From IMG/VR virus record IMGVR_UViG_3300043433_000035, positions 1 to 42,462 of that record: a stretch of DNA of 42,462 nucleotides. One strand, 5' to 3'. Below, piece by piece: positions 2,578 through 42,192 of this stretch (position 1 is its first letter; each line of letters begins with the position of its first letter). The notes below the pieces were generated by a model. It was not told the DNA's origin and did no database searches. It worked only from the letters and a program-made list of their open reading frames with translations. The stretch is from a virus. A program made the translations under genes and the position numbers.

Positions 2578-3057
2578 ATGACTGTAATGATCACATTAAA
2601 TAAAATCCGTGCAGGTTCACCCTGCGTAGGTGGTTGGCAAAAAGTACTAAAAGCCCATGAACATCTTGGAATGGATACACCATTTCCGCTATCCAGTGTT
2701 TTAGAGTCAAATGGTCTGAAAGATACACTCTTGTGTTTTGAAGTACTTCCAGAATATATTGAAATACCAAAAAGATTCGCAATTTGGTGTGCTCGAGATG
2801 TGCAGCATTTGATGGAAGATGAATGTGGTGTTAATGCAATTAATGTAGCAGAACGTTATCTTGATGGTAATGCGACGTGGGAAGAACTACAAGCTGCTGC
2901 TTGTGCTGCTACTCGTGCTGATGCTGCTGCTGATGCTGCTCGTGCTGCTGCTTATGCTGTTGCTTGTACTGCTACTCGTGCTACTGTTGATGCCGATATG
3001 GAACAAAAACAAATTGATAAACTTAGAGAGATGTTAGATGAATCCAACAGTCAATAG
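2578..3057 (+). CDS. Ala-rich repeat-family protein (copy A)
   Basis: This 159-residue protein begins MTVMITLNK. Residues 1-100 form a conserved domain (AHEHLGMDT, PEYIEIPKRF, WCARDVQHLM, VAERYLDGNAT). An Ala-rich tract of about 45 residues follows, with TRADA/AADAA-like units coded by GCT-rich triplets, then a conserved tail (MEQKQIDKLREMLDE). Its DNA is nearly identical to 7345-7812 over the first 310 nt. Only the Ala tract and a few bases differ. The last codons overlap the start of the exonuclease gene (3038), as the second copy overlaps its own downstream gene. The architecture matches a widespread family of Ala-rich phage proteins of unknown function. A resemblance to the WACDCAER-type Imm5-like domain is only a guess. 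Confidence 0.85.
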   Translation: MTVMITLNKIRAGSPCVGGWQKVLKAHEHLGMDTPFPLSSVLESNGLKDTLLCFEVLPEYIEIPKRFAIWCARDVQHLMEDECGVNAINVAERYLDGNATWEELQAAACAATRADAAADAARAAAYAVACTATRATVDADMEQKQIDKLREMLDESNSQ

Positions 3058-7344: not shown

Positions 7345-7812
7345 ATGACTGTAATGATCACATTAAATAAAATCCGTGCAGGTTCACCCTGCGTAGGTGG
7401 TTGGCAAAAAGTACTAAAAGCCCATGAACATCTTGGAATGGATACTGAATTCCCACTATCCAGTGTTTTAGAGTCAAATGGTCTGAAAGATACACTCTTG
7501 TGTTTTGAAGTACTTCCAGAATATATTGAAATACCAAAAAGATTCGCAATTTGGTGTGCTCGAGATGTGCAGCATTTGATGGAAGATGAATGTGGTGTTA
7601 ATGCAATTAATGTAGCAGAACGTTATCTTGATGGTAATGCGACGTGGGAAGAGCTACGAGCTGCTGCTTATGCTACAACTGTTGATGCTGCTCTTGCTGC
7701 TTATGCTGCTGTTGATGCTTATGCTGCTGCTTGTACTGCTACTCGTGCTACTGTTGATGCCGATATGGAACAAAAACAAATCAATAAACTTAGAGAAATG
7801 TTAGATGAATAA
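7345..7812 (+). CDS. Ala-rich repeat-family protein (copy B)
   Basis: This 155-residue paralogue of 2578-3057 has the same N-terminal domain and C-terminal tail but a different Ala tract (units such as VDAALAAYAAVDAYAAAC). Positions 7426-7544 and 7635-7749 are identical to the two window-end fragments, implying a third near-identical copy. The stop overlaps the start of the next gene (7805), as in copy A. Function is unknown. The contrast between a constant N-terminal half and a variable repeat tract suggests recombination or slippage in the tract. Confidence 0.85.
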   Translation: MTVMITLNKIRAGSPCVGGWQKVLKAHEHLGMDTEFPLSSVLESNGLKDTLLCFEVLPEYIEIPKRFAIWCARDVQHLMEDECGVNAINVAERYLDGNATWEELRAAAYATTVDAALAAYAAVDAYAAACTATRATVDADMEQKQINKLREMLDE

Positions 7813-8786: not shown

Positions 8787-9065
8787 ATGACTGGTTGTAA
8801 AATTTTAGACGCTGCTATAGATATGGCGTTGGAGGTAGGTTTTAACAACGTGCGACGTGATGCAGTAGCACAACGTGCGGGTTGTGCTACTGGTATGGTT
8901 AATTATGTATACAAAAACATGGACGGTCTACGAACCGCAATCATGGAAGAAGCTATCGAATCTGAACACATTAGCATTATTGCTCAAGGGTTAGCACAGG
9001 GTGACCCAACAGCAATGTCAGCACCAGCAAGGCTTAAAAGTAAAGCATTAAGTGCGTTAATGTAA
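8787..9065 (+). CDS. TetR-like DNA-binding regulator (short)
   Basis: This 92-residue protein begins MTGCKILDAA, with AAGG upstream. Its first 60 residues have the TetR N-terminal pattern: helix 1 (ILDAAIDMALEVGFNNV), then a helix-turn-helix (RRDAVAQRAGCATGMVNYVYKNMDGL). The ligand-binding domain of TetR proteins is missing, so only a DNA-binding domain and a short tail remain. It follows the palindromic operator promoter and precedes the primase gene. Inference: it is the repressor of the eight similar operators in this genome, since TetR-type domains bind palindromes of this kind. Direct binding is untested. Confidence 0.8.
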   Translation: MTGCKILDAAIDMALEVGFNNVRRDAVAQRAGCATGMVNYVYKNMDGLRTAIMEEAIESEHISIIAQGLAQGDPTAMSAPARLKSKALSALM

Positions 9066-13964: not shown

Positions 13965-13999
13965 ATTCCACTATGTTTCACACTTGAACATAGTGGAAT
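13965..13999. other. Perfect 13-bp hairpin without T-run
   Basis: ATTCCACTATGTT is repeated in inverted form as AACATAGTGGAAT, with a 9-nt loop. It follows the stop at 13956. Lack of a T-run argues against a classical terminator. It may stabilise an mRNA end or bind a protein. Confidence 0.55.
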
Positions 14000-14099
14000 A
14001 TCCTCCCCCGTAAGTCATATCTAGTGTAATATTCTATTTTGTTTATTTTTTGACCCGCGCTGTTATAAAGTACTAATTCTCCCCAATTTTACACCCGGT

Positions 14100-14381
14100 G
14101 GTGGGGGTGGTTCAGGGGTGGGATAACCACATGATTGCAATAAGAAATTCCGGAAATACCCCTGCATCCCTACACTTTCTCCCTATTCACGGCCGCTGAC
14201 TATATATCCCTATATTTATATATATATCCTATTATAATATTTATTAGGGGGTAAGGGGGTATACAATATAAGTAAAAGAAACATAAGGAGTTTTTCACAC
14301 CCCGAAGAAAAAATGCTGTATAGGGTGTACGGGGTATGAAATGTATGTTGGCGTTTCTGTCAGAACTGTGGCATTATCGCG
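14100..14381 (+). repeat. Duplicated intergenic element, copy 1 (before the terminase genes)
   Basis: About 280 bp are recognisably the same as 27910-28201. Shared blocks in order are ATAACCACATGA, AATTCCGGAAAT, CTATTCACGGC, a long A/T-only core, a G-rich block and a final 33 bp identical in both (14349-14381). C-rich blocks at 14157-14175 and 14297-14305 can pair with G-rich blocks at 14246-14263 and 14319-14337, giving alternative hairpins. The small-terminase start lies 33 nt beyond and has no ribosome site. No function is known to me. Confidence 0.75.
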
Positions 14382-14413
14382 ACATGTGATTATCATTGCG
14401 CGAGTTTAAAAAC

Positions 14414-14842
14414 ATGGCGGCTAAAAAAAATGAATTCGGGCTAACTGAAAAACAAGAAAAATTTGCCCAAGAATATATTCGATGTAAAAATGCTTCACAG
14501 GCATATCGTAATTCTTATAATGCCGAAACAATGTCACCCGCTGTTATTAACGTTAAGGCATGTGAAATTTTAAAGAAGGGTAAGATTGCGGTAAGAGTGA
14601 ATGAATTACGTGGCGAAATTAAAGAACGACATAATATAAGCGTGGATTCTCTTATTAAAGAATTAGAAGAAGCGAGACAAATTGCTTTATCTGCAATAAC
14701 ACCTCAAACAGGTGCGGCAGTTACAGCGACAATGGGTAAAGCTAAATTAACCGGGCTGGATAAACAAATTATAGAAATATCTGGCGAAATATCGACGCGT
14801 AAGGTTTTAAGTGATTTTTATGCAACCAACACTAAATCCTAA
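14414..14842 (+). CDS. terS: Terminase small subunit
   Basis: This 142-residue protein recognises phage DNA for packaging. It shows the terminase small subunit pattern: LTEKQEKFAQEYIRCKNAS, then AYRNSYN, AxxILKKGKIAVRVNELR, a helix-turn-helix layout. The start at ATG 14414 (MAAKKNEFG) fits the family better than the earlier frame start at 14396. There is no evident Shine-Dalgarno site. It overlaps the large subunit gene. Confidence 0.88.
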   Translation: MAAKKNEFGLTEKQEKFAQEYIRCKNASQAYRNSYNAETMSPAVINVKACEILKKGKIAVRVNELRGEIKERHNISVDSLIKELEEARQIALSAITPQTGAAVTATMGKAKLTGLDKQIIEISGEISTRKVLSDFYATNTKS

Positions 14843-16208: not shown

Positions 16209-17500
16209 AAGAAAATACATCTGACGGACTTGTGAACATTGCTAGCGGTTTGGGGACTGAAAAAGCTAAACGCTCACACAATAAATTTCAATATGCGACG
16301 CTCAATACATGGCAACAATGGGACGCTGCATACCAAACCAACTGGATTGCCCGCCAGATTGTGGACATCCCCGCCGAGGATATGACGCGTGAATGGCGCT
16401 CTGTTAAGTGTGAGGGCGCCGAAGACATACGCATTGAAGAAGACCGTTTAATGATACCAAGTCTTGTACATGAAGCGGAATGCTGGGCAAGATTGTATGG
16501 TGGTGGCGGTATTTTGATGATCACAGGTCAGGACTTAACAAAGCCGCTAAATTTAAACGCTATTAAAAAGGGCGGGTTGCAACGTTGCATCGTATTCGAC
16601 CGTTTTGATATGCAAGCTATGACACTGAATACATGGAACGTATTAGCCAATAATTATTTACAACCTGAATTTTTTACAATTACGGGCGGTGCTCAACAGA
16701 TACACTGGTCACATTTTGCACGATTTAATGGCGCACGTTTACCACGCCGGCAAATGGTGCAAACTCAGGGTTGGGGTGATTCAGAACTAAGAAAATGTTT
16801 AGATGACATTATGGACATTGTGGCATCTAAAGACGGTATAGCTGAACTAATGCAAGAAGCTAATATCGATGTGATTAAGCGTCAAGGATTGAGCGAAGAA
16901 ATAGCGACCGACCAAGATAGTGCAATCATGAAACGCTATGCAATTTTTAGTCTTATGAAATCCACGATCAACATGGCACTGTTGGACGGAGACGAGACGC
17001 TAGAACGTCAGACGCTCAATCTGTCCGGTGTGGCGCCAATCATTGAGACGTTCATGACGTGGATAAGCGGAGCGGCCGATATACCTGTTACACGCCTATT
17101 TGGTACGTCCGCAAAAGGTTTAAATGCTACAGGTGATGGGGATTTAAATAACTATTACAACTCTATTCGCTCTAAGCAACTTACACAGCTTGACCCGGCT
17201 ATGCGCCGACTCGACGAAGTGTTAGTGCGTTCAGCACTCGGATACTGGCCGGACGATTACAATTATCAATGGAACCCATTATCACAGCCAAACCACGTTG
17301 AAGCTGCTACAGCTAGTAAAATACTGGCCGACCGCGATAGCATTTATCTGGAGCGCGGCGTTGTGCAAGTGTCGCAAATTCAACGTAATTTACAAGCTAA
17401 CGAAACATATCAATATAATGACGAAGACATTGCCGAATTGGAAGAGTTAGAAGACGCAAATATGTTTGAAGAACCTGTACAACGTGATAATATACCGTGA
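16205..17500 (+). CDS. Portal protein (DUF1073-like)
   Basis: This 431-residue protein forms the dodecameric DNA gate of the head. Motifs of the DUF1073 portal family are visible: WQQWDAAYQTNWIARQIVDIP, ARLYGGGGILMI, FGTSAKGLNATGDGDLNNYY and YWPDDYNYQWNPL. Length is normal for the family. It starts in an ATGA overlap with terL. Its stop codon lies inside the 14-bp stem of the structure at 17494-17600. Confidence 0.9.
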   Translation: MKENTSDGLVNIASGLGTEKAKRSHNKFQYATLNTWQQWDAAYQTNWIARQIVDIPAEDMTREWRSVKCEGAEDIRIEEDRLMIPSLVHEAECWARLYGGGGILMITGQDLTKPLNLNAIKKGGLQRCIVFDRFDMQAMTLNTWNVLANNYLQPEFFTITGGAQQIHWSHFARFNGARLPRRQMVQTQGWGDSELRKCLDDIMDIVASKDGIAELMQEANIDVIKRQGLSEEIATDQDSAIMKRYAIFSLMKSTINMALLDGDETLERQTLNLSGVAPIIETFMTWISGAADIPVTRLFGTSAKGLNATGDGDLNNYYNSIRSKQLTQLDPAMRRLDEVLVRSALGYWPDDYNYQWNPLSQPNHVEAATASKILADRDSIYLERGVVQVSQIQRNLQANETYQYNDEDIAELEELEDANMFEEPVQRDNIP

Positions 17501-17600
17501 AATTGAGCAAGAAGCCAACTACATCATGGTGTAATAGTTGGTGGAAGGATTCCATAGAATCCCTGAATTCTGTGCTGGGGTGAGACCTCAATTTCACGGT
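17494..17600 (+). ncRNA. Candidate structured RNA element at the portal stop codon
   Basis: ACCGTGAAATTGAG (17494-17507) pairs perfectly with CTCAATTTCACGGT (17587-17600). Inside are two further perfect stems: CCAACTA/TAGTTGG (17515-17521 with 17535-17541) and GGATTC/GAATCC with a CATA loop (17547-17562). The result is a closed multibranch fold of 107 nt. The portal TGA lies in the outer stem. No known RNA family was recognised. It could equally be a DNA-level inverted repeat. Confidence 0.5.
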
Positions 17601-17655
17601 GTGGTTAACCAATGGGTAAAGTTGTAAAAACTGCTCAACTGGTTACTTTTGGTAT

Positions 17656-17669
17656 GCCCCTTGCGGGGC
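17656..17669. terminator. Terminator-like GC hairpin
   Basis: GCCCC-ttgc-GGGGC is followed by GTTAATTATT on the plus strand. There is no proper T-run, so termination is uncertain. It separates the portal transcript from the convergent gene at 17678-17902. A 20-codon reading frame, MGKVVKTAQLVTFGMPLAGR, ends across the hairpin (17612-17674) and lacks a ribosome site. Confidence 0.45.
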
Positions 17670-17677
17670 GTTAATTA

Positions 17678-17902
17678 TTAGTTCCAGATTACTAGTAAAG
17701 CGTTTTGATTTTTACGTTCATGAATTGTCGCAACACACTTACCATCAACATCACGAAAAACAACACCAGCGCCTGCATGGTTATCTTTTACTTTTGAGAA
17801 TGTTTTACATTCCTTTCCTGATTTGTTCAGTTCAATAACTGCGTGTTTAAAGTTTGCTTTTGAGTGACCACTTTTAAATCCTAGCTCGATGTGTGCGTTC
17901 AT
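17678..17902 (-). CDS. Small hypothetical accessory protein
   Basis: This 74-residue protein begins MNAHIELGFKSG, with AAGGA/AGGG upstream. It is basic, with a pattern suggesting a beta-rich fold (GAGVVFRDVDGKCVATIHER). No family was recognised. It has its own operator-containing promoter (17941-17969) and lies against the direction of the late operon, so it is an accessory gene under the early-type control. Confidence 0.7.
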   Translation of the reverse strand: MNAHIELGFKSGHSKANFKHAVIELNKSGKECKTFSKVKDNHAGAGVVFRDVDGKCVATIHERKNQNALLVIWN

Positions 17903-27854: not shown

Positions 27855-27883
27855 ATACTACATCACATTGACAGTCTCGTCAA
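27855..27883 (-). promoter_or_regulatory. Operator-containing promoter of the Ntn-hydrolase operon
   Basis: Minus strand: TTGACG (27883-27878), 17 bp, TAGTAT (27860-27855), with operator TTGACGAGACTGTCAA. The -10 region (TAGTATTAATTT) also matches the promoters at 263 and 7092. Confidence 0.75.
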
Positions 27884-27909
27884 GTATTCATTTTACCCAA
27901 AAACACGAA

Positions 27910-28201
27910 AGTGTGGGGGTATGTATTGGGGTGCACATAACCACATGAATATAATAAGGAATTCCGGAAATTGCCCCATACCCTTACATTTCTCTCCTAT
28001 TCACGGCTACAGAGTGTCTACTCCTATATATACATATACATTCTTATTATATGTTATATATATAGGGGTAAGGGGTATATATAGTATAAGTGTAAGTAAT
28101 ATAAAACATTTTTTGATACCCCGTCTGAATACCCAGTACAAAGTACATGGGGTATACAGTATATGCTGGCGTTTCTGTCAGAACTGTGGCATTATCGCGT
28201 G
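27910..28201 (+). repeat. Duplicated intergenic element, copy 2 (before the neck genes)
   Basis: This is a diverged copy of 14100-14381. Shared blocks include ATAACCACATGA, GAATTCCGGAAAT, CTATTCACGGC, the A/T-only core, GGGGTAAGGGGTAT and the 33-bp end (28167-28199). C-rich blocks at 27972-27988 and 28116-28123 can pair with G-rich blocks at 28063-28078 and 28147-28155. GTAC-aaa-GTAC caps the second hairpin. The end directly adjoins the start codon at 28202. Confidence 0.75.
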
Positions 28202-28675
28202 ATGCTAAAATTAAAAGATTTTCAACTTGCAAAAAAAGAATTAGAACGCGAATTGAAAAAATTTCGCGGTTATAAATCCGTAACCGTGGGTATACATGAA
28301 GGTGCCGGCGATGTACCGGATGGTAATATTAATATGGCAACACTGGGGGCTGTTTTAAATTTTGGTACTGATGATGGCCATATACCCGCCCGCCCATGGT
28401 TAGAACCGGGTGTTGCGTCAGGCACAAAAGAATACTTACAAATAATTTCGAACGGTATTAAAAACGGCGAATCGCTTGAATCTGTGCTCGATACTGTGGG
28501 AATTGTGGCAACAGGGAAAGTACAAGAATTTATGACAGAGTTAAGCAGTCCTGCAAATGCCGCAAGTACTATCAAGGCGAAAGGTGCCGATAATCCGCTG
28601 ATTGACGAAGGACATTTGCGCGCATCGGTGACGTACCAAGTCACGAGTGACAAACTTGAAGAGGGTTTATCATGA
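28202..28675 (+). CDS. Neck/tail-completion protein (HK97 gp10-like)
   Basis: This 157-residue protein begins MLKLKDFQLAKKELEREL. It shows the pattern of gp10-like tail-head joining proteins: GYKSVTVGIHEGA, ATLGAVLNFGTDDGHIPARPWLEPG and PLIDEGHLRASVTYQV. There is no ribosome site before 28202. An in-frame ATG at 28163, inside the repeat element, would add MLAFLSELWHYRV and has a GGGG about 10 nt upstream, so the true start is open. Confidence 0.8.
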   Translation: MLKLKDFQLAKKELERELKKFRGYKSVTVGIHEGAGDVPDGNINMATLGAVLNFGTDDGHIPARPWLEPGVASGTKEYLQIISNGIKNGESLESVLDTVGIVATGKVQEFMTELSSPANAASTIKAKGADNPLIDEGHLRASVTYQVTSDKLEEGLS

Positions 28676-40645: not shown

Positions 40646-40993
40646 TTATTTAACTTCTTCACATTTGTTAAGGTATGCCCAAGTGCCGCCTACATCGGTA
40701 GTAAACTGATATGTCCCACCACGCTTAATAAAAATGGTATCGCCTACTACAGAGCGGTAAATACCTTTTTCAATCTCTGTCATTTCACCACTGAACGCAA
40801 CTTTGTCATTGTACACCATTTGAAAAGATGTACCGTTATCAGAAACTAAAACCGGTTCAGGTACGTCGTGGATTATTTCAAGTGATTCATCATCTATCGC
40901 TGAAATTATATGAGCTTGACACACTTTAGTAATTACGTTTGCATGTGCAGGTAATCCAATAGCAATAAGCATTATCATAATGATATGTTTCAT
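40646..40993 (-). CDS. Secreted hypothetical protein, last gene of the paralogue operon
   Basis: This 115-residue protein starts MKHIIMIMLIAIGLPAHA, a signal peptide with likely cleavage after AHA. Two cysteines (KVCQA and NKCEE) could form a disulphide. The mature part is beta-rich (TIFIKRGGTYQFTTDVGG). It overlaps the upstream Ala-rich gene (ATGA). It may be a periplasmic effector, for example of exclusion, but only location is shown. Confidence 0.75.
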   Translation of the reverse strand: MKHIIMIMLIAIGLPAHANVITKVCQAHIISAIDDESLEIIHDVPEPVLVSDNGTSFQMVYNDKVAFSGEMTEIEKGIYRSVVGDTIFIKRGGTYQFTTDVGGTWAYLNKCEEVK

Positions 40994-41628
40994 TTACGCA
41001 ACATCTCCATAAATTTAACAATTTGTTTTTGTCTCGCAGCAGCAGCGCGATTACCGGCATGAATTCTATTGCAAGTATAAGAAGCAGCATGAGCATAATC
41101 GACAGCAGTACGAGCATTAGCAGCAGTATCAACAGCATAAGTATCATCAATAGCAGTCATTAATTTTCCCACGGTTACATCACCATCAAGATAACGCTCT
41201 GCTACATCAAGTTCACCACCGTAAACAGCGGTAATAGTAGCGGCATAAGCTGTAGCACAAGCATAATCAGCACCACGGCTACAAGCAACAGCAGCATCAG
41301 CATCATCAATAGCAGCGCTCAACTCTTTCAGAGTCGCATTACCATCAAGATAACGCTCTGCTACATCAAGTGCGTTAACACTACGTTCATCTGTCATTAA
41401 ATGTTGTACCTCTCGAGCACACCACAGAGCGAACCGTTTCGGAATTTCAATATATACTGGTAATGCTGCAAAACATAAAATTGCATCGTCCAAACCGTTG
41501 GAATCCAAAATACTTGACAGCGGAAATGGTCTATCCAGACCTAGATGTTCATGTGCTTTATGTACTTTTACGCAACTCTTAGGTTTCAATACACTGTATA
41601 CTTTGTTTAGTGTGATCATTACTGGCAT
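40990..41628 (-). CDS. Ala-rich repeat-family protein (copy C)
   Basis: This 212-residue paralogue begins MPVMITLNKVYSVLK after AAGGA. It keeps the N-terminal domain (AHEHLGLDRPFPLSS; IEIPKRFALWCAREVQHLM) and tail (RQKQIVKFMEML). The segment LDVAERYLDGNATLKEL is repeated once later as LDVAERYLDGDVTVGKL, an internal duplication of about 60 residues with its Ala-rich part. It is more diverged from copies A and B than they are from each other. Confidence 0.82.
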   Translation of the reverse strand: MPVMITLNKVYSVLKPKSCVKVHKAHEHLGLDRPFPLSSILDSNGLDDAILCFAALPVYIEIPKRFALWCAREVQHLMTDERSVNALDVAERYLDGNATLKELSAAIDDADAAVACSRGADYACATAYAATITAVYGGELDVAERYLDGDVTVGKLMTAIDDTYAVDTAANARTAVDYAHAASYTCNRIHAGNRAAAARQKQIVKFMEMLRK

Positions 41629-41646: not shown

Positions 41647-42192
41647 TTAAGCTGCGTCTAGCATCTCTCTAATCTTATCAATTTGTTTTTGGTACGTATC
41701 GAGGGGTTCGGGAGTACTGCCACAATGTGTAGCTGCGTTTTCAACAAATTCGACAGTGCGAATAACATCGCGAGCAATATAGGCAACATCGGTAATAGTA
41801 TCGTTAATACTTTCATCAGTAAGGCAGTAGATAAGAGTATTGACGATATGGGTGCGCTCAAGGTCGTACAGGTCTTCTAACTCATCCCGCGTTGCATTAC
41901 CGTCAAGATAACGTTCTGCCACCTCTAATGCTTCGATATCCTCGCTGTCGTCCATCATTAAATACGATATATCCTGAACACACCACAATGCGAATTTTTT
42001 TAATATTTCAATGTGTTCGGGTAGTGCTTCAAAACACTTTAATGCCCCGTGCAAGTCACTGCAATCTAATACGTTACATAGGGGAAATTGTGTATTCATC
42101 CCCAAATGCTTATGTGCTTTTAATACTTTTTCCCAGCCGTCTATAGAGGGTTGGGATTCTAGAATTTTATTTAACGTGATCATTACTGGCAT
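41647..42192 (-). CDS. Repeat-family protein lacking the Ala tract (copy D)
   Basis: This 181-residue paralogue begins MPVMITLNKILESQPS after AAGGA. It has the family N-terminal domain (AHKHLGMNTQFPL; WCVQDISYLMM; LEVAERYLDGNAT) and the tail (YQKQIDKIREMLDAA). In place of the Ala tract is an ordinary acidic region (LYDLERTHIVNTLIYC ... ITDVAYIARDVIRTVEFVEN). This shows that the Ala tract is not required for the family. Confidence 0.82.
   Translation of the reverse strand: MPVMITLNKILESQPSIDGWEKVLKAHKHLGMNTQFPLCNVLDCSDLHGALKCFEALPEHIEILKKFALWCVQDISYLMMDDSEDIEALEVAERYLDGNATRDELEDLYDLERTHIVNTLIYCLTDESINDTITDVAYIARDVIRTVEFVENAATHCGSTPEPLDTYQKQIDKIREMLDAA

Follow-up and report, generated by a model that had tools for sequence, protein, structure and literature searches.

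A Repeated Array of GGGGTA Sites Upstream of Phage Virion Operons Is Likely an Activator-Dependent Late Promoter Region

The window analyzed here, which is the whole of IMG/VR virus record IMGVR_UViG_3300043433_000035 (42,462 bp), contains two copies of an intergenic repeat of about 300 bases, each at the head of a block of virion genes. Taken together, results of our analysis make it likely that this element is an activator-dependent late promoter region which controls the virion operons, and that it functions most likely as a DNA control region and not as a structured RNA. The comparison of related phages reveals an array of sites, an extended -10 box, a regular spacing between this box and the last site, and the association of the element with one particular replication module. 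The putative activator of the array is probably a 92-aa TetR-type protein. Evenly balanced, in our opinion, is the broader proposal that the two represent a widespread and so far undescribed late switch, in which a minimal activator composed of TetR_N only is combined with a portable site array of ~300 bp that serves unrelated virion modules and possibly also acts as an origin. The timing of late gene expression in this broad phage group, which includes Klebsiella phages studied for therapy, appears to be undescribed in the open-access literature searched, where we found no paper that describes the element, and none that reports a late promoter or a late activator of the TetR type for these phages. 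The present finding names a promoter, a site and a probable regulator.

Two Copies of the Element in the Window

The use of region 14090-14400 as a blastn query against the whole record returned, besides the query itself, region 27937-28199 (75% identity, E = 2.3e-39), and no third copy in the window. A first-pass annotation, prepared from the sequence alone, had placed two copies of about 290 bp at 14100-14381 and 27910-28201, each preceding virion genes and both sharing an exact end of 33 bp, and our results agree with it in all these points. The borders of the element, taken from a family profile (nhmmer), are 14076-14383 for copy 1 (E = 3e-48) and 27890-28200 for copy 2 (E = 7e-54), both on the plus strand. 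The first late gene downstream of copy 1 encodes the small subunit of terminase (TerS; 14414-14842, plus strand; phrog_51, E = 2e-25), while the one downstream of copy 2 encodes the neck1/tail completion protein (28202-28675, plus strand; phrog_222, E = 7e-41). The copies are about 14 kb apart and have the same orientation, and each of them heads a late operon. Their common 33-bp end, TGGCGTTTCTGTCAGAACTGTGGCATTATCGCG (14349-14381, plus strand), is identical with 28167-28199 and does not occur elsewhere in the window, even when 3 mismatches are allowed.

Upstream of copy 1, at 13967-14002, there is a long inverted repeat (ATTCCACTATGTT ... AACATAGTGGAAT), mostly kept in L006 and devoid of a T-run, which is perhaps the terminator of early genes. 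Four genes of the same genome are paralogues that belong to the unknown family phrog_18326 (2578-3057, 7345-7812, and, on the minus strand, 40990-41628 and 41647-42192).

Homologous Elements in Other Phages

The family of elements is large and apparently undescribed. Near copies at both positions are present in contigs 3300043405_000016 and 3300047298, and distant blastn matches lead to Klebsiella phages of the Jedunavirus genus and to Pectobacterium phage PEAT2 (72 phage records, with about two places in each). In Jedunavirus phages and PEAT2, the element is again intergenic and located 5′ of terS, as copy 1, and 5′ of neck1, as copy 2; Edwardsiella phage PEi21 has it at both positions as well. 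An iterated nhmmer profile recovered the element from L016-L033 and L053, which are IMG/VR relatives, and from the position 5′ of neck1 in L072, L074-L077, L079, L080, L083, and L084; homologues of copy 2 thus placed occur in IMG/VR phages as well. The element is also carried by Shewanella phage SppYZU01 and Acinetobacter phage Scuro. The neck copy is absent from L073, L078, and L089, where another virion gene directly precedes neck1. In phage pKp383 (L012), the part of the neck copy (41842-42043) that connects C2 with the promoter does not follow the consensus of the family.

For a systematic count, 77 loci were collected by primase similarity, from 80 of 218 primase relatives. Among these loci, 47 contain the element (E < 1e-4), in all 47 cases on the same strand. 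Another 21 are too short to judge, and of the 56 testable loci, 9 are devoid of the element, although their sequence continues for at least 7 kb past the primase gene. The element heads the late genes in many environmental phages, and its place 5′ of the first late gene and its sense orientation are constant in many genera. That both copies could be decayed coding sequence, as the first-pass annotation had allowed for, does not agree with the conservation of the element and its intergenic location.

The same annotation had listed a mobile element as one of the options. The presence of two diverged copies in one genome would be expected of an element that had inserted twice, but the probability of this explanation is in our view negligible. 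It is contradicted by synteny, namely, by the same two positions and the same orientation across genera; besides, the window holds no further copy, bacterial genomes searched for the conserved end motif gave no exact match, and the search of plasmids gave just one match of 27 bp, which is at chance level.

Architecture of the Element

The blocks of the element follow one another in the order G1, C1, AT core, G2 (tandem), C2 (often tandem), G3, and promoter, which confirms the earlier description of ordered C-rich and G-rich blocks around an A/T core. In copy 1 (all blocks on the plus strand), sequence and alignment assign G1, with GGGGTG-type sites, to 14097-14122; C1, with TACCCC, to 14157-14175; the AT-rich core to 14200-14246; G2, a family-conserved tandem of GGGGGTA, to 14247-14263; C2 (CACACCCCG) to 14296-14304; and G3 (CGGGGTA), 36 bp upstream of the -10 box, to 14330-14336. 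In copy 2, likewise on the plus strand, the tandem GGGGTA of G2 is at 28065-28077, C2 (TACCCCGtctgaaTACCC) is at 28118-28134, and the GGGGTA of G3 is at 28149-28154, again 36 bp upstream of the -10 box. The spacing between C2 and G3 in the family clusters at 22-23 and 31-38 bp. In related phages, the core of an element usually has the highest AT content of any 100-bp stretch in the genome.

The G blocks contain sites of the GGG(G)TA type and the C blocks contain their complement, so that a single consensus, GGGGTA/TACCCC, is present in both orientations around the AT core. The enrichment of GGGGTA in the elements as compared to the remaining parts of the genomes is about 9-50 fold. Unbiased clustering of k-mers mainly brought up repeats in coding sequence. 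The blocks are complementary because their common consensus runs in opposite directions.

This complementarity bears on a possible role of the element as RNA. The first-pass annotation had interpreted the differing but still pairing blocks as a sign of selection on structure, and had proposed, among other options, a late promoter with a leader RNA. A structured leader RNA (a riboregulator or an antitermination RNA, such as put of HK022), acting on the late operon and having its own promoter within the AT core, would agree with the ability of the C-rich and G-rich blocks to pair alternatively and with the computed promoters that the records of Klebsiella phages KpV52 and KpV79 place midway along the element. 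Helix co-evolution was tested by comparing the pairing of native arms with that of arms swapped between phages. The native C2-G3 arms scored 8.30 vs. 8.19 for the swapped ones (p = 0.24; inner positions, p = 0.65), and native arms were no better than swapped ones in the case of C1-G2 (p = 0.99) and G1-C1 (p = 0.13); G1 and C1 appear well matched in the four closest copies, yet the match is about as good between arms that have been swapped. While homologues of the element, which the earlier note had proposed to collect for a test of covariation, are thus abundant, compensatory changes in the helices are absent by the arm-swap test, and therefore the differing sequence with retained pairing mostly reflects the common motif. 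Moreover, the scan of Rfam gave no match of the element to a known RNA family, and the conserved -10 box and the predicted transcription start are downstream of all hairpin blocks. A leader RNA is accordingly very unlikely.

The regulatory features annotated in KpV52 and KpV79 are inside the homologous element, although elsewhere in it than those described here, and they are unexplained; these records mention neither the repeat family and its site array nor the 3′ promoter or the regulator.

Extended -10 Promoter at the 3′ End

Directly upstream of the first late gene, related phages share the sequences TGTGGTATnAT, TGTGGCATTAT, TGTGATAAT, or TGGTAAAAT. The conserved TGTGGyATnAT is an extended -10 box (TGn followed by the -10 hexamer), and within the window it occurs solely at 14367 and 28185. 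The homology-based late promoter of copy 1 (14348-14377, plus strand) comprises TTGGCG, a spacer of 18 bp, and CATTAT with TGn before it, with a predicted start near 14384, and that of copy 2 (28166-28195, plus strand) comprises CTGGCG, a spacer of 18 bp, and CATTAT with TGn, with a predicted start at the neck1 ATG (28202). The -35 hexamers are poor in most copies, including both copies of the window; L027-L032, with TTGACt-17-GACAAT, are exceptions. The earlier statement that no promoter of the common type lies in the element has to be revised, as relatives reveal the extended -10 within the exact 33-bp end. A simple promoter scanner missed it: no fitting promoter was found by this means at the 3′ end of the element, and the site indicated by homology is not the best-scoring hexamer. 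The -10 box of the window (CATTAT) is weak and homology-assigned, and in the window clade the hexamers selected by an unbiased pick are different ones.

In the 3′ 100 nt of the element, the extended -10 motif was found in 42 of 78 distinct copies, as compared to 2 of 241 other sequence windows and 4% of shuffles. When the -10 box was picked independently of G3, it was located 26 ± 3 bp downstream of the last GGGT in most copies. In the window clade, the homologous box is at 36 bp, while L016, whose large terminase subunit (TerL) is 85% identical, keeps the same box at 26 bp; the difference of 10 bp corresponds to one helical turn. The Rayleigh test of this spacing gave 4.5e-9 for 48 copies and about 1e-4 for 65 copies, values that are inflated by the relatedness of phages. 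All in all, the late promoter, one of the options of the first-pass annotation, is well supported.

In accordance with that annotation, the genes that follow the element lack ribosome-binding sites: upstream of neck1 (ATG at 28202) there is no match of at least 3 bases to AGGAGGT, and TerS (ATG at 14414) is preceded by GAG only. The neck1 message would be leaderless, given the start predicted at its own ATG, which fits the missing ribosome site. The arrangement in L075, L076, and L079 resembles that of neck1 in the window, while a short leader that includes a ribosome site is present in Jedunavirus phages and L077.

At 14384-14389, the predicted start of copy 1 coincides with an ATG-TGA start-stop, and the sequence ACATGTGATTAT is kept in L003, L007, and L016. 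On the minus strand, at 27855-27883, a divergent promoter of the sigma-70 type (TTGACG, 17 bp, TAGTAT) abuts copy 2 and faces minus-strand genes; a minus-strand promoter is annotated at the matching place in the records of KpV52 and KpV79.

The Element Follows the Replication Module

Comparison of proteins revealed a double dissociation, in which the element follows the replication module and is independent of the terminase and virion module. SppYZU01 and Scuro have in common with the window the helicase, exonuclease, gp2.5, a 162-aa nuclease-like protein, the TetR-type protein, and the primase, and they carry the element despite having no detectable homologue of the TerS, TerL, portal, capsid, neck, or sheath proteins of the window. 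Conversely, TerL (72% identity), portal, capsid, neck, and sheath proteins of G012 are related to those of the window, and this phage has neither the replication module nor the element. The genes downstream of the element represent four TerL families (best matches phrog_2, phrog_38, phrog_15, and phrog_979) or encode minor tail proteins. The factor that acts on the element should therefore come from the replication module, and whichever late module lies downstream is the one served. This suggests a rule of module exchange: one late-control element serves unrelated virion modules, provided that the replication module brings the regulator.

The same observations concern the proposal that the element is a packaging site (pac or cos) bound by the small terminase. 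One copy is directly 5′ of the terminase gene, and repeated sites beside an AT-rich stretch resemble regions of the cosB type. Still, the second copy is 5′ of neck1, and the element is retained with unrelated terminases, or where a gene of a minor tail protein follows, and is absent from G012 in spite of its 72% identical terminase, which argues against a site bound by terminase. Additionally, related phages assemble as circularly permuted genomes, according to PMC3391216. We regard a packaging site, also named among the earlier options, as highly improbable.

Candidate Regulator

The replication module common to phages with the element encodes one clear helix-turn-helix (HTH) regulator, the 92-aa protein (8787-9065, plus strand; just 5′ of the primase gene), which is the probable cognate regulator of the array. 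Its match to Pfam TetR_N scores 25.8 bits (cut-off, 24), and the TetR_N match was obtained for 36 of the 39 proteins in a family of its diverse homologues. PDB profile matches are to TetR-family regulators and cover their HTH part. An alignment-based AlphaFold model has a pLDDT of 94.9, while the fold of the TetR-type protein from the single sequence is poor (pLDDT 58). The protein resembles the TetR family in its TetR_N HTH and in its fold, but differs from it by the absence of the C-terminal ligand-binding/dimerization domain, in place of which there is a short helical tail. Owing to the missing ligand domain, the fold of the model matches those of TetR-family proteins weakly (best E = 5e-3). 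In the phages examined, the TetR-type gene precedes that of primase, either adjacent to it or at a distance of a few small genes; as it is nearly always beside primase, this linkage points to the module and not to this particular protein.

Proposed Mechanism and the Origin Alternative

We propose that a small phage DNA-binding protein, made together with the replication genes, binds to the GGGGTA/TACCCC array. The most likely candidate is the 92-aa HTH protein of the TetR type whose gene is immediately 5′ of that of primase. From the site near -41 or -51, the bound protein would recruit the host sigma-70 RNA polymerase in a class II-like manner to a promoter with a weak -35. The virion genes would thereby be switched on after the replication proteins appear, and the second copy would serve as a separate late promoter for the neck/tail block. 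Several observations weigh against this proposal: the -10 box of the window is weak, 9 of the 56 testable primase loci have no element, and CP-T1 and G017 combine the TetR-type gene with no recognizable element.

The main rival of the late promoter is a replication origin, in which a replication-module protein would bind initiator sites placed both ways around an AT-rich unwinding core. The element could be such an origin alone or one doubling as a promoter, which would couple late transcription to replication. The mirrored sites that flank the AT-rich core and the linkage of the element with helicase and primase also fit an origin, and they count against a promoter-only reading. In addition, the highest AT content in a relative's genome is usually found at the element, and some copies match the family profile on both strands. 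On the other hand, the two operon-head copies, ~14 kb apart in one orientation, and the constant phase between promoter and last site fit transcription better. The GC skew, which is weak evidence, indicates no clear origin: its extremes mostly coincide with switches of the coding strand, away from the element, SppYZU01, with its skew minimum at the element, being an exception. An origin, which the first-pass annotation had considered as a replication site, is thus supported by the AT core, symmetry, and module linkage, but not by the copy arrangement and promoter phasing; it seems to us unlikely, albeit the least unlikely of the alternatives.

Comparison with Known Regulatory Systems

Late promoters of certain phages are driven by small phage activators, such as Ogr of P2 or C and Mor of Mu. 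The late promoter region proposed here would resemble these systems in the involvement of a small phage DNA-binding protein that is made ahead of the late phase and would act at a sigma-70 type promoter whose -35 is poor, and in the location of its site just upstream of a promoter that heads virion operons. Unlike in those systems, the candidate protein is unrelated (TetR_N type), its putative site is GGGGTA/TACCCC, activation is here a prediction, and in place of one short dyad there is a two-sided array of ~300 bp with an AT core.

The part of Comeau et al. 2012 (PMC3391216) that deals with tetR genes in myoviruses of the phiPLPE group suggests their role in osmotic stress and does not name a target site. 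The tetR product of CP-T1, a phage of this group, is a relative of the 92-aa protein of the window. In CP-T1, as well as in G017, where the gene is diverged, and in G026, where the terminase side is cut, the TetR-type gene is present with no recognizable GGGGTA element. At the place of the element, 5′ of the terminase gene, Vibrio phage CP-T1 (L116) has long nested inverted repeats with an AT core but of a different sequence (17463-17748), while in G017 (L057, 64-192) there is a cluster of ACTGTA upstream of terS, which comprises 4 of the 7 genome copies of this motif within 119 bp. These stretches of CP-T1 and G017, which hint at co-divergence of the site sequence with the recognition helix, may be diverged counterparts of the element.
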